The translations under genes were made by a program, and so were the position numbers. From the IMG/VR virus record IMGVR_UViG_3300031975_000128, positions 1 through 32,298 of that record: a stretch of 32,298 nucleotides of DNA; one strand, 5' to 3'. Source of the DNA: a virus. The notes beneath the pieces were generated by a model. It saw nothing but the letters and a program-made list of their open reading frames with translations. It did not search any database and had not been told where the DNA came from. Shown one piece after another: positions 9,835 to 31,434 of this stretch (position 1 is its first letter; each line of letters begins with the position of its first letter).

Positions 9835-12603
9835 ATGCCTAAACAACTTTTAAGCATACCGAGCTTTACGGCTGGGGAGCTTTCATCCTCTATGGAGGGT
9901 AGAACAGACTTTGCAAAATATTTTAATGGAGCTAGTAACATTGAAAATTTTGTTGTATTGCCTCACGGGCCAGTAACTAGACGGCCAGGTACTTATTTTG
10001 TATCTGAAGTAAAAACATCTGCTAATTCTACAAGATTAATTCCATTTACATTTTCAACAACACAAACTTACGTTTTAGAATTTGGTAATCAATATATTAG
10101 ATTTTTTAAAGACGATGGCCAAATAACTGAAGGCGATAAAACTATTAGTGCAATTACTGCTGCAAATCCAGCTGTTGTTACTTCTAGTTCACATGGTTAT
10201 TCAAACGGAGATTTTGTTAATATTTCTGGTGTTGTAGGAATGACAGAAGTAAATGGTAAAACATTTAAAGTTGCAGACAAAACTACTAACACTTTTGAAT
10301 TACAAAATGTTGATGGTACAGATATTAACTCATCTGCTTTTACAGCTTACTCATCTGGCGGTGTTGCTAACAAAATTTTTCAAATAACAACTGAATATAC
10401 TACTGCACAACTATTTGATATTAAATTTGCGCAATCGGCAGATGTCATGTACCTATGCCACAATTCTCACGAAGTTATGAAACTTTCGAGAACGGGTCAT
10501 ACGTCTTGGAGTTTAGATGAAGTTGATTTTGGAACCAAGGGGCCATATTTAGATGCTAACACTACGACAACCACTTTAACACCAGCTCAATCCGCAACTG
10601 GAACTGGAGTTAATATAACAGCTAGTGCTATAACTGGAATAAATGGTGGTAATGGATTTCAAACTACAGACGTTGGCAGAATAATAAAATTTAATAGTGG
10701 CGAAGCAAAAATAACAGCTAGAACAAATACAACAGTTGTAGTTTGCACCATAACAGATGCGTTTGCTAATACCGATGCAACTGCTGCTTTTCAACTTGGT
10801 TCGTTTTCAGATACTACGGGTCATCCAGCTTGTGTTTCATTCTTTGAACAAAGATTAGTATTTGCTGCAACTAGCGATCAACCCCAAACTATGTTTTTCT
10901 CTAAATCTGGAGACTACGAAAATATGACATCGGGAACCGATGCGGATAATGCTATGATTTATACGATTGCATCTAACCAGGTTAATGCAATTAAATCTTT
11001 AAAAGCTACAAGAACTTTAATTTGCATGACAACGGGTGGCGAATACGCAGTATCATCTGGTACATCGCAAGATGCAATTACACCATCCAATATTAATATT
11101 AGAAAACAATCTAACTATGGTTCAGCGGGTGTTGATGCTTTATCAATAGGAAACGCAACTATATTTTTACAACGTGCAAAAAGAAAAGTTAGAGAGCTTG
11201 CTTATAACTTTGATACTGATGGTTATGTTGCACCAGACTTAACAATTTTGGCGGATCATATCACAGATAGTGGAGTGGTTCAAATGGATTACCAACAAGA
11301 GCCATATTCTGTTGTTTGGGCTGCAAGAACAGACGGAGTATTATCTGGTTTAACTTATAATAGATTAGAGAATGTCGTAGCCTGGCACAGACACGTTATC
11401 GGAGGTAAATCAGACACAACTAAAAATATTATACAACAACAAATTTCTTTTACATCTAATTCAACAATAGTTAGTACAACTAACAATACTATAACTTTAA
11501 CATCACACGGATTATCAACTGGCGATCCAGTTTATTATTATGCAGCTAGTAATATTATTGGTGGATTAGATAACTCTACACTTTATTACACAATAGCATC
11601 TGACAGTAACACTATTAAACTAGCAACCACAGCAGCTAACGCAACTGCGGGAACTGCTATCTCATTAACTTCAGCTCCTAGTTCAGATACCACGCAATAT
11701 ATTTATCAAGGTGTAAACATTTCATCTAATTTTATTTATTCAGAAGCTCATGGTTTTACTACTGGCGATATATTTTATTATGATAACACGGGTACATCTA
11801 TCGGTGGATTATCTGAAAATGTAAAATATTATATTGAAAAAATAGATAACAACCAATTAAAACTTTATTCTAATAAAACTTTAACAACTGTTGTTGATAT
11901 AACTTCAGCTCATACATCAGAACAAACTGATAATATTTTAACTCATTCTAAAGTAGAAAGTGTTGCAGTAATTGATGGCGATGAAGATGAAGATCAAGTT
12001 TGGTTAATAGTGCAGCGTTGGATTAACGGAGCTGTAAGACGTTATGTAGAATATTTTACACCATTTGATTTTAACGAAGATTTAACTGCGTTTCATTACC
12101 TAGATAGTGGATTAAGTTATGTGGGTGGAGACACTACAAGTTTAACTGGTTTAGATCATTTAGAAGGCGAAGTAGTAGATATTATTGGCGAAGGCTCAAC
12201 GCAAACTTCTAAAACAGTATCAAGCGGAGCTATAACATTAGCAACTGCAACTGAACAAGCTAAAGTTGGTTTATTATATTCATCTGATTTACAAACAATG
12301 AGATTAGATGAAGGTTATACAGAAACTACACAAACTAAAACAACTCGTATTTATGATCTATCTGTTAGATTTCAAAATACAGTTGGAGCTAGTGTGGGGC
12401 CAAATGCAGCAACATTAACTGCAATAGATTTTAGAGCTAGCGGCTCTGCAATGAACTTGCCTATTCCATTATTTACGGGAGATAAATCCGTTGAGTTTGA
12501 TACGGGTTACGGCACAGAAGGGTTGGTTTACATTCAACAACCACAAGCATTACCTATGACAATACTAGGAATATATCCAAGATTGGAGACAGAAAGTGTC
12601 TAA
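9835..12603 (+). CDS. Tail tubular protein B / nozzle (T7 gp12-like) with repeated beta insertions
   Basis: A 922-residue protein. The N-terminus has SIPSFTAGELSSSMEGRTDF, YFNGASNIENFVVLPHGPV and RRPGTYFV, the hallmark of tail tube B/nozzle proteins. Further motifs are HPACVSFFEQRLVFAAT, FFSKSGDYENM and GLTYNRLENVVAWHRHVIGG. Inserted in this framework are three related beta modules (DNA about 10144-10375, 11446-11690 and 11704-11930), each with an SHG(Y/L/F)xxGD core followed by a Y..YYI...N..KL strand pair; similar modules in phage tail proteins are sometimes annotated as FCCH-like. It forms the tail tube and fibre-attachment nozzle, and the insertions may be surface-exposed binding modules. 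The protein is longer than T7 gp12 (794 residues), consistent with the added modules. Confidence 0.9.
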   Translation: MPKQLLSIPSFTAGELSSSMEGRTDFAKYFNGASNIENFVVLPHGPVTRRPGTYFVSEVKTSANSTRLIPFTFSTTQTYVLEFGNQYIRFFKDDGQITEGDKTISAITAANPAVVTSSSHGYSNGDFVNISGVVGMTEVNGKTFKVADKTTNTFELQNVDGTDINSSAFTAYSSGGVANKIFQITTEYTTAQLFDIKFAQSADVMYLCHNSHEVMKLSRTGHTSWSLDEVDFGTKGPYLDANTTTTTLTPAQSATGTGVNITASAITGINGGNGFQTTDVGRIIKFNSGEAKITARTNTTVVVCTITDAFANTDATAAFQLGSFSDTTGHPACVSFFEQRLVFAATSDQPQTMFFSKSGDYENMTSGTDADNAMIYTIASNQVNAIKSLKATRTLICMTTGGEYAVSSGTSQDAITPSNINIRKQSNYGSAGVDALSIGNATIFLQRAKRKVRELAYNFDTDGYVAPDLTILADHITDSGVVQMDYQQEPYSVVWAARTDGVLSGLTYNRLENVVAWHRHVIGGKSDTTKNIIQQQISFTSNSTIVSTTNNTITLTSHGLSTGDPVYYYAASNIIGGLDNSTLYYTIASDSNTIKLATTAANATAGTAISLTSAPSSDTTQYIYQGVNISSNFIYSEAHGFTTGDIFYYDNTGTSIGGLSENVKYYIEKIDNNQLKLYSNKTLTTVVDITSAHTSEQTDNILTHSKVESVAVIDGDEDEDQVWLIVQRWINGAVRRYVEYFTPFDFNEDLTAFHYLDSGLSYVGGDTTSLTGLDHLEGEVVDIIGEGSTQTSKTVSSGAITLATATEQAKVGLLYSSDLQTMRLDEGYTETTQTKTTRIYDLSVRFQNTVGASVGPNAATLTAIDFRASGSAMNLPIPLFTGDKSVEFDTGYGTEGLVYIQQPQALPMTILGIYPRLETESV

Positions 12604-13048
12604 AGTTGATATTATTCCATTTGAAAACGAACACGCAAAATTTATTTTGGAGCAACCATTAAATTCTAAATTTTTAGAATTAAGAAACGAGCATAAAAAA
12701 TACGCTTATTTTTTAAAAGAAATTGGAATGTCGTTTACGGGTATTGTTAACAATAAACCCATTGCGGCTGGCGGAGTGTTACCACTCTGGGATGGCGTAG
12801 CCGAAGGGTGGGTGTTGGCTACAAAAGAAATAAATAACTATCCAATAACATTTGCAAGAGTTATGAAGCAAAGAACTGACATGATGATTGCAAATAATAA
12901 AATTAAAAGATTACAAACAAGTGTTAAAGCTGATTGCAATTTAGCTATTCGTTTTGCTAAATGGCTTGGTTTAAAAGAAGAAGGTTTAATGAAAAATTAT
13001 GGAGCTGATGGTTCAGATTATTACAGATATGCAAGGATTATAAAATGA
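12596..13048 (+). CDS. GNAT-fold protein, T7 gp13-like (DUF2833)
   Basis: A 150-residue protein with a GTG start at 12596 that overlaps the tail tube B stop; GGAG at 12585-12588 is well placed. It contains KPIAAGGVLPLWDGVAEGWVL, IKRLQTSVKADCNLAIRFA and WLGLKEEGLMKNYGADGSDY. This pattern (GG...LW.GVAE.W.L, then a V......A.RF...LGF..EG.+..Y) is typical of the phage DUF2833/gp13 family, which has an acetyltransferase (GNAT) fold. In T7, gp13 sits in the same position between gp12 and gp14 and helps internal core assembly. Whether it binds acetyl-CoA is not shown by the sequence. Confidence 0.8.
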   Translation: MSKVDIIPFENEHAKFILEQPLNSKFLELRNEHKKYAYFLKEIGMSFTGIVNNKPIAAGGVLPLWDGVAEGWVLATKEINNYPITFARVMKQRTDMMIANNKIKRLQTSVKADCNLAIRFAKWLGLKEEGLMKNYGADGSDYYRYARIIK

Positions 13049-13500
13049 GTTTTTTTGGAGATTTATTTGCGGGTAGAGCTGCACAAAAAGCAGCAAACTA
13101 TAATGCTAGACTTGCAGAAAATAATAAAAAAATTAAAGACATGGAAGCAAAACAGATTATGTCTGTTCATAATGATTTTAATCTTCCAAAATTTGACAAA
13201 ACAGTTGAAGAAATACAAGGCACAACAAGAGTTTCATATTTAACAAGTGGAGCTGCATTAGAAGGTACTCCAATAACTGCTCTTTATGCAAACGCATTAG
13301 AGTTAGAAACTGATAGAGATATTATGCAATTCAATGCAGAAAACGCTAGAGACACAAAAATTAACGAAGGCATTATGCTGCAAGCAGAAGCAGATCTTCA
13401 AAGATGGAGAGGTAAAGTTGCGAAAAAAGCTAGTTATTATGCAGCGGGAGCAAGTTTATTATCAACTGGAACATCAATGAAAACAGCGGGGTTCATTTAA
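13045..13500 (+). CDS. Internal virion protein, T7 gp14-like
   Basis: A 151-residue protein in the gp14 position. It starts with a small hydrophobic/Gly stretch (MSFFGDLFAGRAAQKAANYN), continues as a long helical region rich in Ala, Asn and Lys (NARLAENNKKIKDMEAKQ, YANALELETDRDIMQFNAEN), and ends with an Ala/Gly/Ser-rich hydrophobic segment (ASYYAAGASLLSTGTSMKTA) that could insert into a membrane. In T7, gp14 is ejected first and forms a channel in the outer membrane. Assignment is by position, size and composition; sequence similarity to T7 itself is not evident. The ATGA overlap with the gp13-like gene shows coupling. Confidence 0.65.
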   Translation: MSFFGDLFAGRAAQKAANYNARLAENNKKIKDMEAKQIMSVHNDFNLPKFDKTVEEIQGTTRVSYLTSGAALEGTPITALYANALELETDRDIMQFNAENARDTKINEGIMLQAEADLQRWRGKVAKKASYYAAGASLLSTGTSMKTAGFI

Positions 13501-13503
13501 TTC

Positions 13504-15588
13504 ATGGCAATAAAATTATACAAATCACAATTAACACCAACAACTGAAAGTTCTAATGTTATGAATACAAATAGAGTTAGTATGGCAGAAGCTCAATCTA
13601 TTGGTAAAGCCTGGAAAGGCATGGTTAAAGCTGGAGAAGAACTTTATATAACCCACCAAGATATTAAAACTGATAATGAAATTTTAGAAAAATCTAAAGA
13701 AGTAATGAATGGTGGAGAAAATTTTACTGGATTATCTGAAACAAGTATAAGAGCATCAGAAATGAAAGATCCAGATCTTGCTGGTAAAGTATATAACGAT
13801 GAATGGCAAAAAATATTTGATAACGTCAATGGCACATTATCAAATGGAATGGCTAAAAAGAAATTTAAAGCCTTTATGACTAAACAAAATCTTAAAGATG
13901 TTAATGCAATAAAAATTGCTTCAACAACTAATATGATTAATTCTTTAAGAACTAATAAACTAGATCAAATAGAAACTTTAAAAAAATCTGTAATTTTTGG
14001 ACACCCAACAGAAAGTAAATTAGCAGCTGAAGAATTAAAAGTTTTATTAGGAGATAAAAAAACAAAAGAAATATTTGGTAATACTTTAGAAAAAGTTGCT
14101 AAAGCAACTAATAATGAAATAGCTTTTTATGGTTATAAAAGAATGCCATATACACAAAAAGATGAAGTATTAGCAGCAGCCAAAAAAGATAAAAGAATTA
14201 CAGCTGACGATTATTTAAAATTAGAAAAACATTTTAATACAACACAAACAACAGATAATAATTTAAACAAAGATAACGTATCTAAAATGGATAGTAATTT
14301 ACAAGCTGGTATTATATTTAGTGAAGATGAATTTAATGCAGCAATAGCAATTGCCACACAAAACCAAGACGAAAAAACTTTAATTAAATTAAGACAAATG
14401 GCTACTGATGCGCCAATTATTCAAGATCTTAATACTAAAACTGTTGCTCAAATAGAAAAAAAAATTAATTTTTTTACATCTTTTAAAAATAGAGAAGGTG
14501 GTATGACAATAGCTGAAGCTAATGAGTTAAGAATATCACAAGAATATTTAGCATCGCTTACTACCTCATTAGATAAAGATCTAGTTACAACCGCAGCTGA
14601 TAAAGGTGTTATTTCAATATCTGAAATTAATTTTGAAGATATATTAAATGGTGGCGATATGACTGCGTTTATTGATGGTGCAACAAATAGAATTGCACAA
14701 GCAGAAACTGCTGCAAGTGTTTATAAAAGAGAAGTAAAATATTTAACAGCAACAGAAGCAAACACTATTAAAAATGTATTTAATAGTGCAGATACACCAG
14801 AACAATTTATAGCTTTATCAAGTGGTATAGTTAAAGCGTTTGGTGTTAAATCAGATAAAGTATTTAAACAAATTTCTAAAGACGAAAATGTTTTAGCTCA
14901 TCTTGGCGGATTAGTTTTAATGAATGATGGTGTTCCTGGAGAAAATGTAAAACTAGCAGCGGAAGGTTTAATAATTTCTAAAAACGAAAATTTAGCAAAA
15001 TTATATAAAATGTCTACAACAGATATAAGAAGCACAAATATAATTAAAAAATATTCTGAAGTGTTTGTTGGTAGTGAAGCAACATTAGATAGTACAATAG
15101 AAATGACTAACTTAATTTATGCTGCTATACTAAAAAAAGAAGGCAAAACTACTGCTAACTTTTCTAATAATTCTTATGAAAAAGCATTTGTTATGGCAGC
15201 TGGCGGTACAACAGTTGATGGTTTTCCTTTTGATAAAAAAATGGGTGGGTTTGATGAAAACACTAGAGGCACAATGGTTCATATTCCACCTTGGTTACAA
15301 AGAGGTAAGTTTGAAAATGTAATTGAAATGTTAAAAACAGATCCACAATTAGTTTTAAAAGCATCATCAAATGGTAAATTAGCAGTAGCAATGGATGGAG
15401 AAGAAGTAAATATATTTACTAATGAAGATCCATATTTTGTAAGTGTTGGTAATGGTAAATATAAAATTGCTAATGGCGATAATCCAGTAACGGGCCAAAA
15501 CCCAGAATACTTACTTAATAGTGATGGTGGATATTTTATTATTGATATTAATAAAATTAAAGCAGAAATAATTACGGGTATGCAATAA
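13504..15588 (+). CDS. Large internal virion protein (gp15-position)
   Basis: A 694-residue, almost entirely helical, Lys/Asn/Thr-rich protein between the gp14-like and RelA-domain proteins. Its order in the cluster matches T7 gp15, part of the ejected core that forms the periplasmic tunnel. I see no signal peptide and no enzymatic motif. The last about 110 residues switch to a beta-rich character (GKLAVAMDGEEVNIFTNEDP, FVSVGNGKYKIANGDNP, GGYFIIDINKIK), which may be a separate C-terminal domain. The next gene's ATG overlaps its TAA (TAATG). Confidence 0.6.
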   Translation: MAIKLYKSQLTPTTESSNVMNTNRVSMAEAQSIGKAWKGMVKAGEELYITHQDIKTDNEILEKSKEVMNGGENFTGLSETSIRASEMKDPDLAGKVYNDEWQKIFDNVNGTLSNGMAKKKFKAFMTKQNLKDVNAIKIASTTNMINSLRTNKLDQIETLKKSVIFGHPTESKLAAEELKVLLGDKKTKEIFGNTLEKVAKATNNEIAFYGYKRMPYTQKDEVLAAAKKDKRITADDYLKLEKHFNTTQTTDNNLNKDNVSKMDSNLQAGIIFSEDEFNAAIAIATQNQDEKTLIKLRQMATDAPIIQDLNTKTVAQIEKKINFFTSFKNREGGMTIAEANELRISQEYLASLTTSLDKDLVTTAADKGVISISEINFEDILNGGDMTAFIDGATNRIAQAETAASVYKREVKYLTATEANTIKNVFNSADTPEQFIALSSGIVKAFGVKSDKVFKQISKDENVLAHLGGLVLMNDGVPGENVKLAAEGLIISKNENLAKLYKMSTTDIRSTNIIKKYSEVFVGSEATLDSTIEMTNLIYAAILKKEGKTTANFSNNSYEKAFVMAAGGTTVDGFPFDKKMGGFDENTRGTMVHIPPWLQRGKFENVIEMLKTDPQLVLKASSNGKLAVAMDGEEVNIFTNEDPYFVSVGNGKYKIANGDNPVTGQNPEYLLNSDGGYFIIDINKIKAEIITGMQ

Positions 15589-18086
15589 TGAGTTTTTTCT
15601 TTGAAGAAGATACAGCTATACAAGTAAAAAGCACAGAAAGTATATCTAAAGGCGAAAGAACTGATTTTATGGAAAATGCTAGTAAAGCATTTAACGCATT
15701 CCGTAGATCAGAAATATTTACATCTGAAGGTAATAACCAGGAAGAAGAATACGTTAATATAGTAAACATATTAACTGCTGCGGGTCATTCAGATTACATA
15801 TCTCCATTAGAAGTTAATACAGATCCATTAAGTGAAGATGGCGACATGGGCGCAGTATTTAAAACTAGAGACGAATTACAAAAAAATTTTTGGGATCAAG
15901 TTGCAGTATTACAAACTACTGATGAAAATTTAAAAAATAAATTAACAGAAGCGGGTTTAGATAATTTTGAGAATATGCAAAAAACTATTGCAACTAAAAC
16001 TCAAAACGCCTGGAAAGATTATACTGAAGTAAACGAAAGAGCTACTACTGCTGGATGGTGGGGTGGCATGGGTGGTATGGCGGGAGCTGCATTTACAGAT
16101 CCTATTATGCTTATGACTATACCAATATCTTTTGGTTATTCTGTACCCGCTGGTTTTAGTGCCGCTGCATTAAAAATTGGATTAATGGAAGGTATTATAG
16201 GTGGTGTTGCAGAAACAATAATACAGTTAAAAGCACAACCATACAGAGCAGAATTAGGTTTTGAAGATGCTGGTTTTGTAACTGGTGCAAAAAATGTTGG
16301 AATGGTTACACTTGCATCAGCTACATTATCTCCATTACTATTTGGTACATTTAAAGCATTTGGTAAAGGTATCGATGTAGGTAAAAAGTTTTTACACAAA
16401 CAAACTCCAGAAGATCTACAAACTATTTTTAAAGAAATGGGAGAAATAAACCCCAAACTAAAAGATAAAGATTTAACAGAATTTGAATTACCAAAAAAAG
16501 ATAGTCCGTTTGAAGATACAGCTCCAGCTAGGGTTGAGCATAACGAAAGATTAGATACAGCAGCAAGAGCTATTGAAAATGGAGAACCCGTAGATTTACC
16601 ACCAATAAGATCCACGTTAGAAACACCAACACCAACTAAAATAGAATTTAACGATATAACTGCAAGCAACCCAGCTATTAAAAATACTTATGATGGTGTT
16701 AATAGATTAAAAGTATTTACAGAAGATAAAGCTCCTATAACTGTAAAAATGTTAGAAGATATATCTAAAGATGATTTAAACAAAATTTTAAGAGCAAATG
16801 AATTAGGTTTATATAAAAGTCGGCCAGAAGTTTTAATTGCTGCTGATATGACAAAAAATTTTACCAATAAAAAAGGTAAGATTAATTATGAAAATGCACA
16901 ATTTTTTATACGTAAAGAATTAAAAGGTACTGAAACTTTAGATGAGCTTTTACAATTAGAAAGATCTACAAGAGTTACAGAAACACCAAAGGTTGCAGAA
17001 GTAGAAACTGTATCTAAAAACTTTAATAAAGAGCCAACTAGATTAGCTGACGATCAGAATAATGTAAGAGATTTTGATGTACCTAATGAAGCAGCTTATA
17101 GAAATCAAGCCTCAAATATTGAAAGATCTGTATTTGATGTATCTACTTCTTCTTCCATTAGAAGTGTTGCTGGAGCTGGTGCAGCTGCTAAAACATCGCC
17201 TACTGTATTATCAGATGCAACCCAAGTTTTAGCTAAAGGTTCCCAAAAAACAGAAGCTACTCCAGTATCAGTTTTAGCTAATGCTAATACAGTTCCACCA
17301 CTATTTCGTGGTTTAGATACAAGTAGGGTAGGTTCTAAAAGTGCCATAACTAATAAAACAATATATCATATATCAGATGATTTCAATACGATTTATAAAA
17401 CACTATCTGGAAAAAAAAATGAAGTTTTAAAAGAATTACAACCAATAGCTAATAAATATAATGGCGATTTAAAGGCAAGAATAAAAGCTATTAAAGAAAT
17501 TAATAAAAAATTAAAACATACAACAAACCCTAAAAAACCAGAGCATATATCAGATTATTTAGGAACTAGAATATCTGTAAAAACTATTCACGAAGCTAAA
17601 ATGCTTTTAAATGATTTAAACAAAGTTGTTAAATTTTTAGATGTAGATGATTTTTTAAATGATGCGGGTAGAGTAGTTGAAAGTAATACTGAATATAGAG
17701 CTATTCATGCACAAGTATTAACTAAAGATGGCTTTTCATTTGAGTTACAAATTAGATTGAAAGAGCTAGAGCCATTAACAAATAAATCTCACGAAAGTTA
17801 CAAAAAAGCATTTTCTAAAAAAGAAATGACAAATGAAGAATTTAATATATTACAAAAAGAATTACGATCAGTTAATAAAAAATTAAAAGCTAAATATTTT
17901 CAAATAAAAGATAAAGAATTTGCAAGATTAAAAAGTGAAGATCCATTAGATACGCCAATACCAGTTAGTCAAAGATTAGATGATGTTACTGGAGAAAGAA
18001 TACCACTAACTATAACTGCTAGAGAAGCTATTGAACAAGCAGCTAAAGATGAAACAATGTTAAACAGATTGAAAGATTGCGTATGA
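15588..18086 (+). CDS. Internal virion protein with C-terminal RelA/SpoT-like nucleotidyltransferase domain
   Basis: An 832-residue protein in the ejected-core gene cluster. Residues about 150-265 are Gly/Ala-rich and hydrophobic (WWGGMGGMAGAAF, VPAGFSAAALKIGLMEGII, NVGMVTLASATLSPLLFGTF), consistent with membrane insertion. A low-complexity, Thr/Pro/Ala-rich linker runs from about 280 to 590. Residues about 595-780 carry RelA/SpoT synthetase motifs in the right order: RIK (631-633, the ATP-site RxK), DYLGTR (656-661, metal-binding D656), EYRAIH (702-707), ELQIR (719-723, catalytic E719) and HESYK (735-739). In known RelA/SpoT enzymes these bind ATP, GDP/GTP and Mg and transfer pyrophosphate. 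I infer that an enzyme making (p)ppGpp, or pyrophosphorylating another substrate, is carried in the virion and delivered at infection. A hydrolase (HD) domain is absent. Confidence 0.8.
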   Translation: MSFFFEEDTAIQVKSTESISKGERTDFMENASKAFNAFRRSEIFTSEGNNQEEEYVNIVNILTAAGHSDYISPLEVNTDPLSEDGDMGAVFKTRDELQKNFWDQVAVLQTTDENLKNKLTEAGLDNFENMQKTIATKTQNAWKDYTEVNERATTAGWWGGMGGMAGAAFTDPIMLMTIPISFGYSVPAGFSAAALKIGLMEGIIGGVAETIIQLKAQPYRAELGFEDAGFVTGAKNVGMVTLASATLSPLLFGTFKAFGKGIDVGKKFLHKQTPEDLQTIFKEMGEINPKLKDKDLTEFELPKKDSPFEDTAPARVEHNERLDTAARAIENGEPVDLPPIRSTLETPTPTKIEFNDITASNPAIKNTYDGVNRLKVFTEDKAPITVKMLEDISKDDLNKILRANELGLYKSRPEVLIAADMTKNFTNKKGKINYENAQFFIRKELKGTETLDELLQLERSTRVTETPKVAEVETVSKNFNKEPTRLADDQNNVRDFDVPNEAAYRNQASNIERSVFDVSTSSSIRSVAGAGAAAKTSPTVLSDATQVLAKGSQKTEATPVSVLANANTVPPLFRGLDTSRVGSKSAITNKTIYHISDDFNTIYKTLSGKKNEVLKELQPIANKYNGDLKARIKAIKEINKKLKHTTNPKKPEHISDYLGTRISVKTIHEAKMLLNDLNKVVKFLDVDDFLNDAGRVVESNTEYRAIHAQVLTKDGFSFELQIRLKELEPLTNKSHESYKKAFSKKEMTNEEFNILQKELRSVNKKLKAKYFQIKDKEFARLKSEDPLDTPIPVSQRLDDVTGERIPLTITAREAIEQAAKDETMLNRLKDCV

Positions 18087-20623
18087 GCCAGTTTAGAAAA
18101 TGTATTATTAATGGTGCTAAAGAAGGTTTGATAAGTCAAACACAAGCTCACAAACTGCAAGATATGTTAAATGAGTTAGAGGATTACTTTCAATTTAAAA
18201 AAGGTTTAGATAGATCGGAAGCTCAAAGAGCTGCTGCTAAAAAAACCTACGATCAATTAAAAATAGAAAGTGCAGAAAAATTAAGAGCTACATTACTACA
18301 AAGAAAAGTAATGGATCAAATCCAGGAAAGATTATTAAATTATAGAAATAGTAAAGGCGAAGTAGATGTACCTAATGCAGTTAGATCTATGTATGCACAC
18401 GATAATTATTCAACTGAATTTAGTATTGAAAGATTAGTTGATATGGAAAGAGGTAAAGCTCACGCATTAATGAATAATGTTTTAGATCAGCTAGCTTATA
18501 AAATAGGTGGCAGACAAACTAAATTACAAAAAACTAATCTTAAATTAATGATTAGAGAATTAATGGGAGAAAATACTGGTAATAAAAATGCTAAACAATT
18601 AGCTGAAGCCTGGAAACAAACTGCTGAACATTTAAGAAAAAGATACAATAGTTTTGGTGGCAAAATTTTATCAAGAAAAGATTGGGGATTACCACAAATA
18701 CATGACACATTATTAGTTAGATCTGTAACTAAATCAGATTGGATTGATTATGTTTTACCTAAACTAGATCTTGATAAAATGACAGATGAAAGCACGGGTT
18801 TACCATTTACAGATAAAAGTATTCAAAAAGCATTAAATCAAGTTTACGATAATATTTCAACAGAAGGTATGGCAACTTTTAAACCTGGCACAAATTCTTA
18901 TGGTAAAACATTTGCTAATAGAAGAACCGATCACAGATTTTTAGCTTTTAAAAATGCAGATGCCTGGATGGAATATCAAACAAGATTTGGTAATCCAGAT
19001 CCATTTGTAACTATGATGGAACATATTAACGGAATGAGTAGAGATATAGCTTTATTAAAAACATTGGGGCCAAATCCAGATGCAACACACTCATTTTTAT
19101 TACAAACTATAAAGAAACAATCAATATTAGATACAGCCGCAGAAGCACAAGGTAAATTTAAAAGAAAAACTATTAAAAAAATTTCTGGTAGTGAACAAGA
19201 TAGAGCAAGTGCAATAACTGAAAGTATTAATAATTTATATGCCTATCACAAAGGTACTTTAAATCAGCCAGTTAATGCTACTATGGGAAATACATTTGCT
19301 GGTTTAAGACAAATACTAACTTCTGCACAATTAGGAGGAGCAAGTATTATGGCTCTTTCAGATTTTAACTGGTCAAGGATAACATCTAAATTTAATGGTT
19401 TACCATCTTTTAAAGCTAACAAAATGGCTACAAAATTATTATACGATGGTATAAAAAAAGATAGTTCATTAAGTAGAGTTGCTATGCGATTAGGATTAAT
19501 TGCTGAAATGCAATCAACAGTAGCTGGAGTTCAAGCAAGATATTTAGATGACATAGATACACCAATGTTAGCTAAAAGAGTTTCAGATGTAATTTTAAGA
19601 GGTTCTGGATTATCTCATTTAACACAATCTGGTAAATGGGGTTTTGGTATGTCTTTACTAGGAACGCTAGGAGACGAAAGCGGTAAAGTTTTTAATAAAT
19701 TAAACCCAGATTTACAAAAAGCATTAAATAAATATGGTATAGATGATGAGGCTTGGGATATTATTAGAGCTACTAAATTATATGATGCGGGTATTGATGA
19801 ACCTTCTATGGTTGGTAAAAATATAACTTTTTTAAGACCCGATGATATTCATGCAAGAGCAGATCTAGCTCCAGATATTAGAGAAGATTTAACAACAAGG
19901 TTAATGAATTTTGTTACTTCTGAAACTAACTTTGCTGTACCTACTGCATCTGCAAAAGGTAGAACTATTTTAGCGGGAAGTACAAAAAAAGGTACTGTAC
20001 CTGGAGAGCTTATGTCATCAGCTTTAATGTATAAAAACTTTGCAATTACATTAGGCTTTACTCATTTAGCTAGAGGGTTTCAGCAAGTAGGTTTAAAAGG
20101 TAAAGCAAAGTATTTAGTACCAATGATTATAACGGGTGGTGTTATGGGTGCTTTAGCTTATGAATTAAAACAAATAGCAGCTGGTAAAAAACCTACTGAA
20201 CTAAAAGATATGGGAGTTAGATATTGGTTAAATTCATTAGTGTATGGTGGTGGATTAGGAATTTTTGGAGATTTTTTATTTGCAGATCAAAACAGATATG
20301 GTGGATCTTTGCAGAAAACTATTGCTGGGCCAGTCGTAGGTTTCTTACATGATGCAATACAATTAACTATTGGTAATGTTATGCAGCTAGCTTCTGGGGA
20401 AAAAACTAATGCGGGTAAAGAATTAGCGGCATTTATACAAAGATACACTCCTGGTTCAACACTTTGGTATACCAGGTTAGTATTCGAAAGATTAATTATA
20501 GATACACTTGAAAGGTTAATTAACCCAGATTTTGATGCAGATAATAGAAGAAAAGAAAGAAACTTAAAAAAACGTACTGGACAAACGTATTGGTGGTCTC
20601 CAGGCGAAATTACACCAAATTAA
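18083..20623 (+). CDS. Large internal virion protein (gp16-position)
   Basis: A protein of 846 residues from ATG 18083, which overlaps the previous stop as ATGA; an in-frame TTG two codons upstream is less likely. The N-terminal 200 residues are helical and charged (QAHKLQDMLNELEDY, ERLVDMERGKAHALMNNVLD). The middle has RKDWGLPQIHD, FANRRTDHRFLAFKNADAWM and FGNPDPFVTMMEHINGMSRDIA, segments I recognise from internal virion proteins of marine podoviruses. The C-terminal third holds hydrophobic stretches (VPMIITGGVMGALAYEL, LNSLVYGGGLGIFGDFLF, GPVVGFLHDAIQLTIG) likely to enter the host membrane. I see no lysozyme-type transglycosylase motif such as T7 gp16 has at its N-terminus. A role in DNA ejection is inferred from position and composition. 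Confidence 0.65.
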   Translation: MSQFRKCIINGAKEGLISQTQAHKLQDMLNELEDYFQFKKGLDRSEAQRAAAKKTYDQLKIESAEKLRATLLQRKVMDQIQERLLNYRNSKGEVDVPNAVRSMYAHDNYSTEFSIERLVDMERGKAHALMNNVLDQLAYKIGGRQTKLQKTNLKLMIRELMGENTGNKNAKQLAEAWKQTAEHLRKRYNSFGGKILSRKDWGLPQIHDTLLVRSVTKSDWIDYVLPKLDLDKMTDESTGLPFTDKSIQKALNQVYDNISTEGMATFKPGTNSYGKTFANRRTDHRFLAFKNADAWMEYQTRFGNPDPFVTMMEHINGMSRDIALLKTLGPNPDATHSFLLQTIKKQSILDTAAEAQGKFKRKTIKKISGSEQDRASAITESINNLYAYHKGTLNQPVNATMGNTFAGLRQILTSAQLGGASIMALSDFNWSRITSKFNGLPSFKANKMATKLLYDGIKKDSSLSRVAMRLGLIAEMQSTVAGVQARYLDDIDTPMLAKRVSDVILRGSGLSHLTQSGKWGFGMSLLGTLGDESGKVFNKLNPDLQKALNKYGIDDEAWDIIRATKLYDAGIDEPSMVGKNITFLRPDDIHARADLAPDIREDLTTRLMNFVTSETNFAVPTASAKGRTILAGSTKKGTVPGELMSSALMYKNFAITLGFTHLARGFQQVGLKGKAKYLVPMIITGGVMGALAYELKQIAAGKKPTELKDMGVRYWLNSLVYGGGLGIFGDFLFADQNRYGGSLQKTIAGPVVGFLHDAIQLTIGNVMQLASGEKTNAGKELAAFIQRYTPGSTLWYTRLVFERLIIDTLERLINPDFDADNRRKERNLKKRTGQTYWWSPGEITPN

Positions 20624-24235: not shown

Positions 24236-24253
24236 ATACTAAATTTTTAGTAT
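24236..24253. promoter_or_regulatory. Perfect inverted repeat over the start codon of the oxygenase gene
   Basis: ATACTAAA-TT-TTTAGTAT is an 18-base perfect inverted repeat whose last two bases are the AT of the ATG at 24252. There is no Shine-Dalgarno sequence in front of this start. In RNA the tiny two-base loop is strained (the inner A-T pairs would open), but the stem could still mask the start. As DNA it could be an operator. Confidence 0.4.
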
Positions 24254-24836
24254 GAAAAAAACAAAAATTAATAATCCATCTTGGAATTTGTATTTAGATA
24301 AAGTTTATACTTATGCCTATATGGAAAAAGTATTTACTAAAGAAGAATGTAAATTAATAATTAATTCTGCAAAAAAAAAAGGTTTAGTTAAAGGAATTAC
24401 AACAGGCAAAACTGATGCCAGATTAAGTAAAATTTGTTGGTTATATAGTGATGAAAATTTAGAATGGGTATTTAGAAAAATTACAGATGTTGTTTTAAAT
24501 CTTAATAGTAGGTTTTTTAATTTTGATATTTTTGGTTTAAATGAGGGTTTACAATTTACAAATTACAAAGCACCATCAGATAATTATAGAAAGCATATTG
24601 ATAGATCATTAGATATTGTAGTAAGAAAATTATCTTTATCAATTCAACTTACTGATCCCAAAGAATATGAGGGTGGAGAACTAATTTTATACGAAGATGA
24701 AAAAGGCACACCAATGAAAAAAGAACAAGGTACATTAGTATTATTTCCATCTTATATGTTACATGAAGTTAAGCCTGTAACAAAAGGAGAAAGAAATTCA
24801 TTAGTTTCTTGGGTAACAGGAAAACAATTTAAGTAA
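24252..24836 (+). CDS. 2-oxoglutarate/Fe(II)-dependent oxygenase (PKHD/prolyl-hydroxylase type)
   Basis: A 194-residue protein with a complete active-site set: H115-x-D117 (in YRKHIDRS), distal H171 (YMLHEV) and 2-oxoglutarate-binding R181 (GERNSLVSW). The intervening LSLSIQLTDPKEYEGGELIL and GTLVLFPSYMLHEVKPV are typical of prolyl-4-hydroxylase-like phage enzymes, common in marine phages. It hydroxylates an unknown substrate using Fe(II), oxygen and 2-oxoglutarate. Its place beside the fibre genes suggests modification of a virion protein or a host protein late in infection. The fibre has a collagen-like run, but that run contains no proline, so ordinary collagen prolyl hydroxylation of it is unlikely. 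Confidence 0.88.
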   Translation: MKKTKINNPSWNLYLDKVYTYAYMEKVFTKEECKLIINSAKKKGLVKGITTGKTDARLSKICWLYSDENLEWVFRKITDVVLNLNSRFFNFDIFGLNEGLQFTNYKAPSDNYRKHIDRSLDIVVRKLSLSIQLTDPKEYEGGELILYEDEKGTPMKKEQGTLVLFPSYMLHEVKPVTKGERNSLVSWVTGKQFK

Positions 24837-27473: not shown

Positions 27474-27658
27474 TGACTAGAAAAACTAACACAATATTAA
27501 TTGGATTGTTAGGAACTATTCTTATGGGTTTAGCAACTTGGGTTGTAATTACACTTGTTGAAATACAAGTAATTGTAATGATGTTGCAACAAGAGCTAAT
27601 GGATTTAGATAAAGTTATAGGCAGAATTTATCATCACATGGATAGGTTAGCACAATGA
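27473..27658 (+). CDS. Small membrane protein with N-terminal TM helix
   Basis: A 61-residue protein: TILIGLLGTILMGLATWVVITLVEI (about 7-31) forms a transmembrane helix, and the rest (VMMLQQELMDLDKVIGRIYHHMDRLAQ) is a short heptad-like helix. It overlaps the genes on both sides (TAATG in front, ATGA behind). The topology suits an inner-membrane anchored spanin-like or holin-associated protein, but no family is recognised with confidence. Confidence 0.5.
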   Translation: MTRKTNTILIGLLGTILMGLATWVVITLVEIQVIVMMLQQELMDLDKVIGRIYHHMDRLAQ

Positions 27659-29097
27659 AATTTTTTATAATACTAGCAGCTTTACTTTGGTTGCTATTAT
27701 CCTGGTTTGCAAGTTCAGTTGGTTTAAAAGCTGAAGAAATAACAACAAATAATTTATTAACCAATAGTAATTTTGAAACGGGTAATGCTAATGGCTGGAC
27801 AACAAGTGGAGATACCCAAGTAGTAAATGATTGCTGCGAGCTAAATGGTGTATCAAGTAATTATGATTTAGAGTTTGGCGATAGCGGATCTATATCGCAA
27901 GATGTTAATTTAACAACTAATACTATTACCCAAAATATGTTGGATAATGGTATTACTTTAAACCAAGTAACAGAGGTGCAAAACGGAGAATGTAATGTAT
28001 CTGGTTGTTGGGGAGGCAGCGGAGCTGCGGATCAATTTACTATAAATCTTAATATTAAAGATAGCTCTGGTAGTGTTATTGCTACCATGACATCTACTAG
28101 AACAAATGTAACGGGTATTAACGGAGCTAATTTTACTGATACTCTTATCTATACTGGTACTGGTTCAAACGTAGGTAACACTACTATTTCTGCTGTAGAT
28201 GCAAATGCTCCAGCAACTCTTGGTGGGCCAAACATAGACAACATATTATTAACTATGACTTATAATAATGTTGTTTTACAAGTTGAGACTAAACAAGCAT
28301 TACAAGCATTTGAAGAACAAGTTTTATTTGAAGAAGAAGAACAATTTTTTACTGAAGAATTTGTAGAAATATTTACTGAAAAAATAGAAACGATTGCAGC
28401 TTCTCCATTACCATCTGAAGAAAAAGCAGTAGAAATAACAGCTGCTGTATTAAAGTTTGAAGAAAAAACAGAAACTAAAGTAACTAAAGCAGAGATACAA
28501 ACAGCTTCTTTTTTACCACCACCAACTACAATGATGGAAGAAAAAGAAGAAAAAAAACCAGCTGAAATAGCAATGGCTATTATGGAAGAAACTAAAAATG
28601 AAGAACCACCATCAGAGCCAGAACAAATAATAGAAACTAAAAAGGAGACTACAAATGTACGGGAAGAAGAAACCAACAAAAGTCAAGCCGAAGAAACCAA
28701 AACAGAAACCGAAGAAAAGGTAGCTGCTAAACCAGAGACTAAAACTAAAAAAACTAATACTAAAGTTAGTAAATTAGAAGCGTCTATGGATAAGGTAGAT
28801 GCAGTAGTTAAAGATGCTGCTAAAAACCTTGAAGTAAAAAGTATTATAAAGCTAGATGCTATGCAAAGTGATAGCTCTATTAACCTGGCTGTCTATAACA
28901 ACCAGGCGTTTTATAAAAGTAAAGATATATATCTAAATCAAATTATTATGTTTGATAACAGAGACATCTATAACAATGTAACCTTGGTTAATTACATAAG
29001 TAATGATCCAATAAACATTAAAGAAAATATCTTACACAACATTAATAAAAGAAAAGAAGAACTATTAATAGAAATAGAGGTACTTAAAAATGGATAG
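27655..29097 (+). CDS. Exported multidomain protein: signal peptide, jelly-roll-like domain, Glu/Lys-rich region
   Basis: A 480-residue protein. Residues 1-26 are a signal peptide (MKFFIILAALLWLLLSWFAS, then SVGLKA). Residues about 32-210 look like a beta-sandwich: NLLTNSNFETGNANGWTTSG is the typical start of carbohydrate-binding or PEP-CTERM-like modules, and CCELNG, GECNVSGCWGGSG and NIDNILLTMTY follow. Residues about 215-375 are extremely rich in Glu, Lys and Thr with almost no hydrophobic core, like the extended rods of TolA/TonB. The last 100 residues (MDKVDAVVKDAAKNLEV..., NLAVYNNQAFYKSKDIYLNQ) form a small alpha/beta domain. A protein spanning the periplasm is a reasonable inference; an envelope-modifying or lysis function is speculative. 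Confidence 0.6.
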   Translation: MKFFIILAALLWLLLSWFASSVGLKAEEITTNNLLTNSNFETGNANGWTTSGDTQVVNDCCELNGVSSNYDLEFGDSGSISQDVNLTTNTITQNMLDNGITLNQVTEVQNGECNVSGCWGGSGAADQFTINLNIKDSSGSVIATMTSTRTNVTGINGANFTDTLIYTGTGSNVGNTTISAVDANAPATLGGPNIDNILLTMTYNNVVLQVETKQALQAFEEQVLFEEEEQFFTEEFVEIFTEKIETIAASPLPSEEKAVEITAAVLKFEEKTETKVTKAEIQTASFLPPPTTMMEEKEEKKPAEIAMAIMEETKNEEPPSEPEQIIETKKETTNVREEETNKSQAEETKTETEEKVAAKPETKTKKTNTKVSKLEASMDKVDAVVKDAAKNLEVKSIIKLDAMQSDSSINLAVYNNQAFYKSKDIYLNQIIMFDNRDIYNNVTLVNYISNDPINIKENILHNINKRKEELLIEIEVLKNG

Positions 29098-29400: not shown

Positions 29401-29477
29401 TGGTCTGGGTGGCTGGATTTGAACCAGCGATCCCTAGCTCCCAAAGCTAGTGCGTTACCAGGCTACGCTACACCCAG
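29401..29477 (-). tRNA. tRNA-Pro (anticodon TGG)
   Basis: Read on the minus strand this is a complete 77-base cloverleaf: acceptor CTGGGTG/CACCCAG (7 perfect pairs), D-stem GCGT/ACGC, anticodon stem CTAGC/GCTAG around loop TTTGGGA (anticodon TGG), variable loop GGATC, T-arm GCTGG-TTCAAAT-CCAGC, discriminator A and an encoded CCA. It starts with C1 as bacterial tRNA-Pro does. No mismatch or gap is seen, so it should be functional. Phage genes flank it on both sides, with the integrase/regulator cluster upstream of its 5' end. Phages of this type often integrate into tRNA genes, so it probably coincides with the attP core or supplies the tRNA-Pro restored after integration. Confidence 0.93.
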
Positions 29478-29770: not shown

Positions 29771-29801
29771 GAGGGAGTTGCTAGCTCCCTCTAGTTTTTT
29801 T
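29771..29801 (+). terminator. Rightward intrinsic terminator between convergent operons
   Basis: GAGGGAG (29771-29777) pairs perfectly with CTCCCTC (29785-29791) over a seven-base loop, and TAG plus seven T follow (29795-29801). It would stop late transcripts that pass the tRNA before they enter the leftward regulator and integrase genes. On the minus strand no good T run follows, so it is mainly unidirectional. Confidence 0.8.
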
Positions 29802-30225
29802 ATAAATTATATATTTTTATTGGTTCTTTATCTGCTACTGGATCTTTAAATGTATTCTCGCCAGCTAGCTCTCGGTTTAATTTAGGCATTAGAGGCGCAT
29901 AGAGACGTTGTAGCCTACGTTCTTCAATAATGTTAGCTTCTATCTCACGAAACTTTTTAGCTACCATATCTTGCTTAAATAAAGGTATTTGTTGCAGCAC
30001 CATTTCTGGATCTCCATTGTATAATAAATTTATATCCCAGCCTTCTTGTTTAGCTAAAACAAATAACTTATCAGAACCAATGCCATTCAAGGCTTTTTCA
30101 TATTTCTGTATCTGCTGAAACGAAACCTTTACTGCTTTAGATATTTTTGTTTGAGTTTTACCGCTTATGGTTCTTAAAACGAACATCATTTTTGCTATTC
30201 GTTCCTTCTCTTGTAGTGCTGGCAT
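29800..30225 (-). CDS. XRE-family transcriptional regulator (candidate phage repressor)
   Basis: A 141-residue protein with an N-terminal Cro/CI-type helix-turn-helix (about residues 12-60): MMFVLRTISGKTQTKISKAV, VSFQQIQKYEKALNGI, SDKLFVLAKQEGW. The recognition helix is around FQQIQKYEKA. The rest is charged and helical, without the S24 peptidase domain of LexA-type repressors, so control by self-cleavage is not expected. It is encoded three bases after the integrase and in the same direction, with an AAGGATGA at the integrase end as ribosome-binding site. It could be the lysogeny repressor or a regulator of integrase/excision. Candidate binding sites are the repeats and dyad just downstream (29503-29722) and in the terS-terL spacer. 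Confidence 0.8.
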   Translation of the reverse strand: MPALQEKERIAKMMFVLRTISGKTQTKISKAVKVSFQQIQKYEKALNGIGSDKLFVLAKQEGWDINLLYNGDPEMVLQQIPLFKQDMVAKKFREIEANIIEERRLQRLYAPLMPKLNRELAGENTFKDPVADKEPIKIYNL

Positions 30226-30228
30226 CTA

Positions 30229-31434
30229 TCATCCTTGCGTTATTTGATTAATAGCAGCTTTTCTTTGTTTCTCATTCAAATTCAAATCTCTGATGTAGTT
30301 AGCTTGTCTAATATCTTTAGAGTTACCAAATCTATTATCCATTTGCTTATCAGTTAAAATTTTAAGTTCTTCCATTCTTGATATGCTCCATTTTCTAAAA
30401 GGAGACATCCCGTTTGGCCAATGGATCCCTAATCTTTTAGCAGAAACTTTAACTCTTTTTCTAGCTCCGTGGATAGGTACATTAAACACTCTTTTAAATG
30501 TTCTTTTTTCCATTTTATTTATATCTGGATTATTAAAAGTTACGTTTCTATGTGTAATTGGAAACATCTGTGCCTTCATCCATATACCAAACAACTCCAA
30601 ACATTGATCTGATACTTCTACAAATCTTCTTTGGGTCTTTACCTGGTAGGGTCTAAAGTTATTTTCTTCATTAATTGAGTGATCTAAAAACACACCACCA
30701 GAATTAAAATCTACATTTTCATAACAGATCCCAAGAAGCTCACTTAATCTAGCTCCAGTTTCAGCAGCACATTTGTATAAAGTTTTAAGTTGTATATCTG
30801 GTTCCTTATTTACAACAGCTAACAGCTCTGGAGTTGTAGGCATCCACTTGATTTGAGTATTGTAATCTTTAAAATATTTTGGCCCGAATTTAAAATTAGC
30901 AATGGTGTAATCAATCTTCCATTGTCTGCTGGCACAAAAATTTACAAATTTTTTAAATTCTAATACCGCAGCTCTAATAGTTACTCTACCAATGGTTTCA
31001 GTTTTTTTCTTATAGAAACCGAACCCATTTTTTTTAACCCATTGTAGAGCTTTGCTATTTTTAATACCAAGTAAAGTTACTTCTCTAAAATCTGATAGTA
31101 AGTAGTCTGCTAGATATTGTTTATTGATATGGGGTCTAACATGATTGTTAATATATGCAATCTGCATATCTTTATATTTAGATGTTGTGTCTGGATCGCT
31201 ATTAATAACTTTAAAGTATTCATCAAAAGCAAAATTAAATTCTATTTTTTGATCGATGACATCTATTTTATCTGAATTTTCTAGTTTAGATCTTAACGCT
31301 TCAGCTTTTCTTTTTTCATTCAAACCAAAAGTTTCTTTGTTTTGCTTTTTAGTTTTGCCGTTTACCTGGTAAACAACTTGAACGCATAGTTTTTTACCGC
31401 CAGCTCTATCAACAGTAACAACTTGAACTTTCAT
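30229..31434 (-). CDS. int: Tyrosine recombinase (phage integrase)
   Basis: A 401-residue protein. The N-terminal part (about 1-50) could be an arm-binding domain, residues about 66-175 the core-binding SAM-like domain, and 200-401 the catalytic domain. Visible catalytic residues are R229 (ETGARLSELLGI), K266 (YQVKTQRRFVEV), R347 (SPFRKWSISRM) and nucleophile Y380 (DIRQANYIRDL). The histidine usually three residues before the second arginine is a serine here (S344), and the residue after R347 is lysine. It catalyses integration and excision between attP and attB; the tRNA-Pro about 750 bases away is the likely site. An ATG start follows a GGAGG that lies inside the end of the upstream gene. 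The C-terminal HTH-like region after Y380 is short. Confidence 0.9.
   Translation of the reverse strand: MKVQVVTVDRAGGKKLCVQVVYQVNGKTKKQNKETFGLNEKRKAEALRSKLENSDKIDVIDQKIEFNFAFDEYFKVINSDPDTTSKYKDMQIAYINNHVRPHINKQYLADYLLSDFREVTLLGIKNSKALQWVKKNGFGFYKKKTETIGRVTIRAAVLEFKKFVNFCASRQWKIDYTIANFKFGPKYFKDYNTQIKWMPTTPELLAVVNKEPDIQLKTLYKCAAETGARLSELLGICYENVDFNSGGVFLDHSINEENNFRPYQVKTQRRFVEVSDQCLELFGIWMKAQMFPITHRNVTFNNPDINKMEKRTFKRVFNVPIHGARKRVKVSAKRLGIHWPNGMSPFRKWSISRMEELKILTDKQMDNRFGNSKDIRQANYIRDLNLNEKQRKAAINQITQG

Follow-up and report, generated by a model that had tools for sequence, protein, structure and literature searches.

The window, by which we mean the whole stretch of DNA analysed, is a 32.3-kb virus record (32,298 nt; IMG/VR IMGVR_UViG_3300031975_000128). 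It has the layout of a temperate short-tailed phage: terminase, portal (PF12236), major head protein, tail tubular proteins, internal proteins, tail fibre, lysozyme, repressor and integrase are recognised by Pfam and PHROGs. We call the genome temperate because a repressor-like regulator and an integrase lie side by side at 29800..31434. In the operon of internal virion proteins, an 832-aa protein (hereafter the carrier) carries a RelA/SpoT synthetase domain (Table 1).

Three other features of the window deserve mention. A complete tRNA-Pro(TGG) (29404-29477, minus strand; Rfam 68 bits) lies near the repressor and integrase genes; its identity to full-length tRNA genes of Pelagibacteraceae does not exceed 80%, and it is possibly an attachment site or a phage-borne tRNA. 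A 2OG-Fe(II) oxygenase-like gene (24252-24836; phrog_61, E 6e-32) stands behind the tail fibre gene. Near the lysis genes, a 480-aa protein (27655-29097) is without a match in Pfam, PHROGs and PADLOC; it apparently begins like a signal peptide and continues with a stretch rich in Glu, Lys and Thr.

Table 1. Features of the carrier, its operon and the lysogeny region, in window coordinates
Feature	Coordinates	Strand	Basis or remark
gp13-type (GNAT-like) and gp14-type internal virion proteins	12596..13500	+	phrog_308 E 6.7e-15, phrog_418 E 1.5e-4; synteny
gp15-slot protein, 694 aa, without cysteine	13504..15588	+	same operon position as epsilon15 gp15
gp16-slot internal virion protein (RelA/SpoT carrier)	15588..18086	+	ORF, 832 aa
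Conserved glycine-rich hydrophobic helices of the carrier, aa ~155-262	16050..16373	+	alignment; DP motif, QPYR/ELGF region
Exchangeable cassette, about aa 372-775 (variable linker and synthetase allele)	16701..17912	+	identity between window and L003, incongruent trees
RelA/SpoT-type pyrophosphokinase domain, aa ~593-785	17364..17942	+	PF04607, PDB profile search, AlphaFold2, Foldseek
Syn1 R631, K633, K641	17478..17510	+	predicted ATP triphosphate binding, by homology
Syn2 D656-x-L-G-x-R661	17553..17570	+	29/29; predicted catalytic Mg ligand, by homology
Syn3 Y703-R-[AR]-I-H707	17694..17708	+	Y, R, I, H 29/29; predicted acceptor-base site, by homology
Syn4 E719-x-Q721-[IV]-[RS]723	17742..17756	+	E and Q 29/29
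Syn5 H735-x-x-Y738-K739	17790..17804	+	H 28/29, Y 29/29, K 23/29
Cys831, sole cysteine of the carrier	18078..18080	+	kept among gp16-slot proteins
gp17-type virion structural protein	18083..20623	+	phrog_684 E 1.5e-161; ATGA overlap with gp16
gp17 Cys7, sole cysteine	18101-18103	+	counted from the ATG overlapping the gp16 stop
Repressor-like regulator	29800-30225	-	phrog_8/phrog_4
Integrase	30229-31434	-	phrog_1

The carrier occupies the gp16 slot of an epsilon15-like operon

The gene order tail tubular B, GNAT, gp14, gp15, gp16, gp17 is of the epsilon15/phiV10 type (epsilon15 gp12-gp17), and the sizes run from a small internal protein through a ~700-aa protein and the carrier to a ~850-aa protein. 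Pelagibacter phages annotated with internal virion proteins have the matching order, that of Vibrio phages VP2 and K225 is similar, and the gp17-type protein has confident homologues across these phages (112 INPHARED records). From this synteny and the gp17 homology it follows that the carrier occupies the gp16 slot. The earlier note had placed the protein where T7 has its ejected core proteins; an internal-virion-protein operon it is, but on gene order we dropped a strictly T7-like placement for an epsilon15-like one.

Compared with other gp16-slot proteins, the carrier is clearly related in profile-profile comparison (probability 100, E 2.6e-43), whereas its pairwise similarity to epsilon15 gp16 itself is not significant; we draw that last link because of synteny, the C-terminal cysteine and the existence of intermediates. 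The whole protein has no match among INPHARED isolates by tblastn, and the synthetase domain alone finds weak matches only, so isolate phages were compared through the neighbouring gp17. Hydropathy peaks of the carrier start at aa 190-237. A Pfam OSK match, below its cut-off and overlapping the helices, was rejected, as were single-sequence PDB matches to lamin, Wzc and hemagglutinin, which are coiled-coil noise. The full-length carrier model was poor (pLDDT 52) and was set aside.

A RelA/SpoT domain with a conserved active site

The earlier note had read a RelA/SpoT-type nucleotidyltransferase from the letters alone, and its five motifs (R631-I-K633, D656-Y-L-G-T-R661, Y703-R-A-I-H707, E719-L-Q-I-R723 and H735-E-S-Y-K739) are present exactly as given; the span it assigned, 17340-17930, agrees with the folded part to within about 30 bases. 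Pfam RelA_SpoT (PF04607) matches aa 631-740 at 38.9 bits (curated cut-off 27; E 1.1e-9) and also matches all 21 distinct relatives. When a family profile of 20 relatives was compared with the PDB, every confident match was a (p)ppGpp synthetase: 7oiw (S. aureus Rel; 2.9e-7), 8acu (4e-6), 9s6k (1.1e-5) and RelP/YwaC (8e-4). As a control, a profile from which the window and its nearest relative had been left out gave the window 284 bits and cellular RSHs 22-47 bits; the top score among 200 shuffled versions of the window domain was 6 bits.

The structure prediction that the note had proposed as a check gave the expected fold. AlphaFold2 on the domain alignment reached a pLDDT of 85.1 and a pTM of 0.81, and the model shows the Pol-beta-like synthetase fold. 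Foldseek found 63 PDB matches at E<=0.001 (best E 1e-7), and the best 50 of the 63 are all RelA/SpoT-type synthetases; the matches include RelP, S. aureus Rel, RelQ, CapRel, the exported SaEAS and Tas1, the last being fifth best in the PDB. Together these results confirm the domain in the 832-aa protein.

Domain identity among 29 sequences falls to about 50%, and 11 residues are invariant in all 29 (R631, K633, D656, G659, R661, Y703, R704, H707, E719, Q721 and Y738), so that the motif residues are kept rather than lost across homologues; K641 is invariant in 20-21 distinct sequences. Position 705 is A in 18 and R in 11 of the 29, and it switches jointly with position 723, giving either YRAIH with QIR or YRRIH with QIS, with one switch on the tree. 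There are thus two active-site subtypes, between which an arginine appears to move from Syn4 to Syn3. Where (p)ppGpp synthetases usually have a serine in Syn3, A or R is found here, and one subtype has S instead of the Syn4 R. In most of the informative pairs dN/dS is 0.10-0.36; it is 0.58 in one near-identical pair with very few changes. These patterns support an active site that is intact and under selection, and the domain is probably an active pyrophosphokinase. The spacing of R, K and K in Syn1 equals that of R64/K66/K74 of FaRel2 (PMC11782079), while the Syn3 H, kept throughout, and the Syn4 IR, kept in one subtype, are like those of guanosine-type enzymes and unlike the GxN and YH of Apk2.

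Distribution among relatives

A pattern scan of IMG/VR recovered the domain at no fewer than 28 loci, counted per contig and some of them nearly identical. At all 28 it lies in the gp16 slot, and the gene order is identical wherever the contig is long enough. A broader profile and the nearest gp17 relatives yielded two further contigs, again with the domain in gp16. Among near gp17 relatives (at least 62% identity), the domain is present in all those whose gp16 can be read at the corresponding region; three other contigs end too soon for this to be judged. Homologous core proteins from which the domain is absent exist in other phages, which answers the comparison that the earlier note had called for. 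Its interpretation as a whole is partly supported, by the fold, the active site, the operon location and the absence of the domain from other phages' cores.

One relative, the nearest cellular record, lies on a Candidatus Pelagibacter MAG contig, and because of this contig and the pelagiphage-like gene order we call the clade marine. The integrase has no match in three genomes of the MAG's family. A host of this family would not be expected to lack an alarmone synthetase of its own, as 105 of 118 genomes drawn from it have a RelA_SpoT match; in the Pelagibacter MAG itself, that match is the phage gene.

An exchangeable cassette and other enzymes in the gp16 slot

The window and its relative L003 are mostly 91-100% identical in nucleotides across the flanks (most of gp15, gp16 aa 1-371, and gp17), compared with mostly 58-72% across the cassette (in this comparison about aa 373-770), where synonymous divergence rises from 0.11 to 0.95. 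Trees of the two parts also disagree. The N-terminal tree joins the window with L032/L033 (support 0.83-1.0) and L025 with L030 (1.0), whereas the domain tree joins the window with L024 and L025, and L030 with L032/L033 (0.94-0.999). Given this contrast in identity and the incongruence of the trees, synthetase alleles have been exchanged between close relatives.

We extracted 72 gp16-slot proteins (250-1500 aa) of other clades and scanned 60 of them. A Zeta toxin was matched in 17 of the 60, and others matched ddrB-ParB, lysozyme, GH108 or GNAT. Other annotated or deposited phage records have ART-PolyVal, ddrB-ParB or GH108 in the slot, and ART-PolyVal is also matched by 5 of 21 RelA-type proteins. 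By eye, L038 and L004 have an extra ParB-like stretch; the window copy has the RelA/SpoT domain only. The Zeta P-loop, GPPAAGKS, falls ~240-310 aa from the C-terminus, near where the synthetase starts in the RelA clade. Judged by sequence, the carrier is a virion-type polyvalent protein, the middle and C-terminal part of which form an exchangeable cassette. The Zeta-like kinases have an intact Walker A motif and lie near the gp16-slot C-terminus in a related set of phages that includes L051, L053-L055, L057-L060, L070, L073, L078, L079, L081, L083 and L085.

Paired cysteines at the gp16-gp17 junction

Each of 119 gp16-slot proteins has a cysteine within 15 residues of its C-terminal end, where composition predicts one in 1.6%, and 118 of them have no other cysteine. 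All 102 gp17 proteins likewise have a cysteine within their first 25 residues, the sole cysteine in 95. The paired singletons span epsilon15, VP2 and the pelagiphages, which suggests a conserved disulfide joining the gp16 C-terminus to the gp17 N-terminus in the ejection apparatus. We found no account of a gp16-gp17 disulfide in the literature searched.

Discussion

Short-tailed phage ejection proteins form a DNA conduit (PMC8954989), and from this literature, the operon slot and the homologues we infer that the carrier is packaged and ejected. In the scenario that we lean towards on balance, the ejected gp16-type carrier delivers a guanosine-type alarmone synthetase, and an early pulse favours the phage programme. 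Packaging and ejection would be the task of the conserved N-terminal helical region and the C-terminal end, and a flexible linker would present the RelA/SpoT-type 3'-pyrophosphokinase near the carrier C-terminus. At infection the carrier would exit the virion together with the DNA or before it, and its domain would move pyrophosphate from ATP to a guanosine, or less likely an adenosine, nucleotide. The resulting pulse would come before phage gene expression, reduce the synthesis of rRNA and ribosomes in the host, and promote the phage programme, including the temperate choice. Catalytic activity, the acceptor and a benefit to the phage are steps that we can only infer. Conservation throughout the clade suggests that the phage gains from the domain in its normal infections, and that it is not a weapon of occasional use. 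A C-terminus tethered by such a disulfide could keep the domain outside the cytoplasm, which counts against this explanation, as do the Syn3 and Syn4 substitutions and a possible action late in infection, confined to the producing cell.

The choice of acceptor is where the main rivals lie. We favour guanosine, with tRNA and (p)ppApp as live rivals; motif swapping failed to convert Apk2 (PMC12226406), and therefore the Syn signatures alone do not settle the acceptor. A toxSAS-like tRNA pyrophosphokinase would, once ejected, cap tRNA 3'-CCA ends and halt translation. CapRel, such an enzyme, is among the fold matches, the ATP-site spacing is shared with FaRel2, and neighbouring clades hold Zeta, another toxin-antitoxin toxin, in the same slot. 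We still think this unlikely: stopping translation before phage expression would hurt the phage itself, no antitoxin gene is recognised in the window (antitoxins unrelated to the known ones being possible), and the best fold and sequence matches are alarmone synthetases, though these do not separate the activities. Self-harm also weighs against a (p)ppApp synthetase that would, like Tas1 or Apk2, drain the recipient's ATP/ADP pool as a weapon against competitors, because depleting ATP would harm the infecting phage. The high rank of Tas1 among the PDB matches and the MuF-linked Apk2 toxins of temperate phages, which do just this (PMC12226406), speak for such an activity; yet Syn3 and Syn4 are unlike the Apk2 signatures and keep the guanosine-type H and often IR, and no immunity or (p)ppApp hydrolase gene is recognised nearby. 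We give this version low odds.

Improbable in our view is a role in the producing cell, at the late lytic stage or in the lysogen, with no delivery by the virion. The gene does belong to a late structural operon, and packaging of the carrier is a prediction. Against this, the operon slot, the carrier homology and the C-terminal cysteine all match internal virion proteins, and placing an enzyme in every homologous core protein of a clade would be an odd route for a cytosolic one. Similarly hard to credit is a catalytically dead domain retained for a structural or DNA-binding role in the ejection apparatus. The changes of Syn3 S to A or R and of Syn4 R to S, and the core proteins of other phages that do without the domain, would fit it, but the ATP- and Mg-site residues are all invariant in 29 sequences, the linked 705/723 switch and purifying selection speak for function, and other clades have unrelated enzymes in the slot, among them Zeta kinases whose Walker A motif is intact.

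If the synthetase is active and ejected, host alarmone levels would change before any phage gene is read, and one could then ask directly whether early infection and the decision for lysogeny are steered by alarmones. More tentatively, and short of an even chance when its parts are taken jointly, a marine temperate clade may deliver an active synthetase at every infection, with the epsilon15-type gp16, disulfide-linked to gp17, as a general effector slot for an alarmone synthetase, a Zeta kinase, an ADP-ribosyltransferase or a ParB nuclease. The effectors that virions deliver across a large group of short-tailed phages could then be read off from this slot, and the allele swapping within it resembles that of polymorphic toxins.

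Comparison with known systems

RelP and RelQ (PDB 6ewz, 5dec) share the fold and motif order and are the best structural matches, but they are stand-alone, cytosolic enzymes with 16-20% sequence identity to the phage domain. RelA/SpoT-type enzymes that pyrophosphorylate tRNA are known (PMC11782079); toxSAS have an adjacent or fused antitoxin, whereas here virion genes flank the carrier, and neither the protein nor the domain has a PADLOC match.

Fusions of RelA/SpoT domains with MuF head proteins have been known since 2017 (PMC5576092), and MuF-linked Apk2 (p)ppApp synthetases, with the signatures GxN in Syn3 and YH in Syn4, have been assayed (PMC12226406). Common to both is a RelA/SpoT fold towards the C-terminus of a phage head protein that is thought to be delivered with the DNA, in a temperate phage. 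Unlike those proteins, the carrier has no MuF match in Pfam or PHROGs, reads YR[AR]IH in Syn3 and Q[IV][RS] in Syn4, and has a conserved carrier tail after the cargo; no iapK/aph1-type immunity or hydrolase genes are recognised, the next gene being the overlapping gp17. We rejected membership in Apk2 on the absence of MuF and the differing signatures.

The ejection proteins in the gp16 slot of epsilon15 and phiV10 and the internal virion proteins of pelagiphages have the same gene order and a C-terminal sole cysteine, and the hydrophobic, glycine-rich N-terminal region of the carrier is common to related clades. These epsilon15/phiV10 and pelagiphage counterparts lack the RelA/SpoT domain, and other clades have different enzymes in the slot. 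In BFVD, large proteins of uncultured Caudovirales match the fold (A0A6J5Q8J2, 'RelA/SpoT'; A0A6J5KIV2, DdrB-like; A0A6J5MFM5, ART-PolyVal-like), these entries being database predictions only.

A close parallel is with polyvalent proteins (Iyer et al. 2017, PMC5512222), which, as here, are large, multi-domain, mosaic and predicted to be virion-borne, and combine RelA/SpoT with ART and ParB-like domains. RelA/SpoT domains in such phage-type proteins have been known since 2017 and were proposed to trigger an alarmone-like response (PMC5512222). The earlier note had held a RelA/SpoT domain in a virion core protein to be little or not described, which, with the polyvalent and MuF examples, was too strong; what stands is the type of carrier. 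The proteins of PMC5512222 come from Spirochaete and epsilonproteobacterial phages and prophages, and that paper makes no mention of epsilon15 or ejection proteins, nor did we find an account in the literature of alarmone or RelA domains in internal virion proteins of the present type. Here, in contrast, an epsilon15 gp16-type carrier is fixed in a marine podovirus-like clade, and its alleles are exchanged between close relatives. As far as our searches show, it is this carrier, its fixation in the marine clade and the allele-swapping slot that are new.
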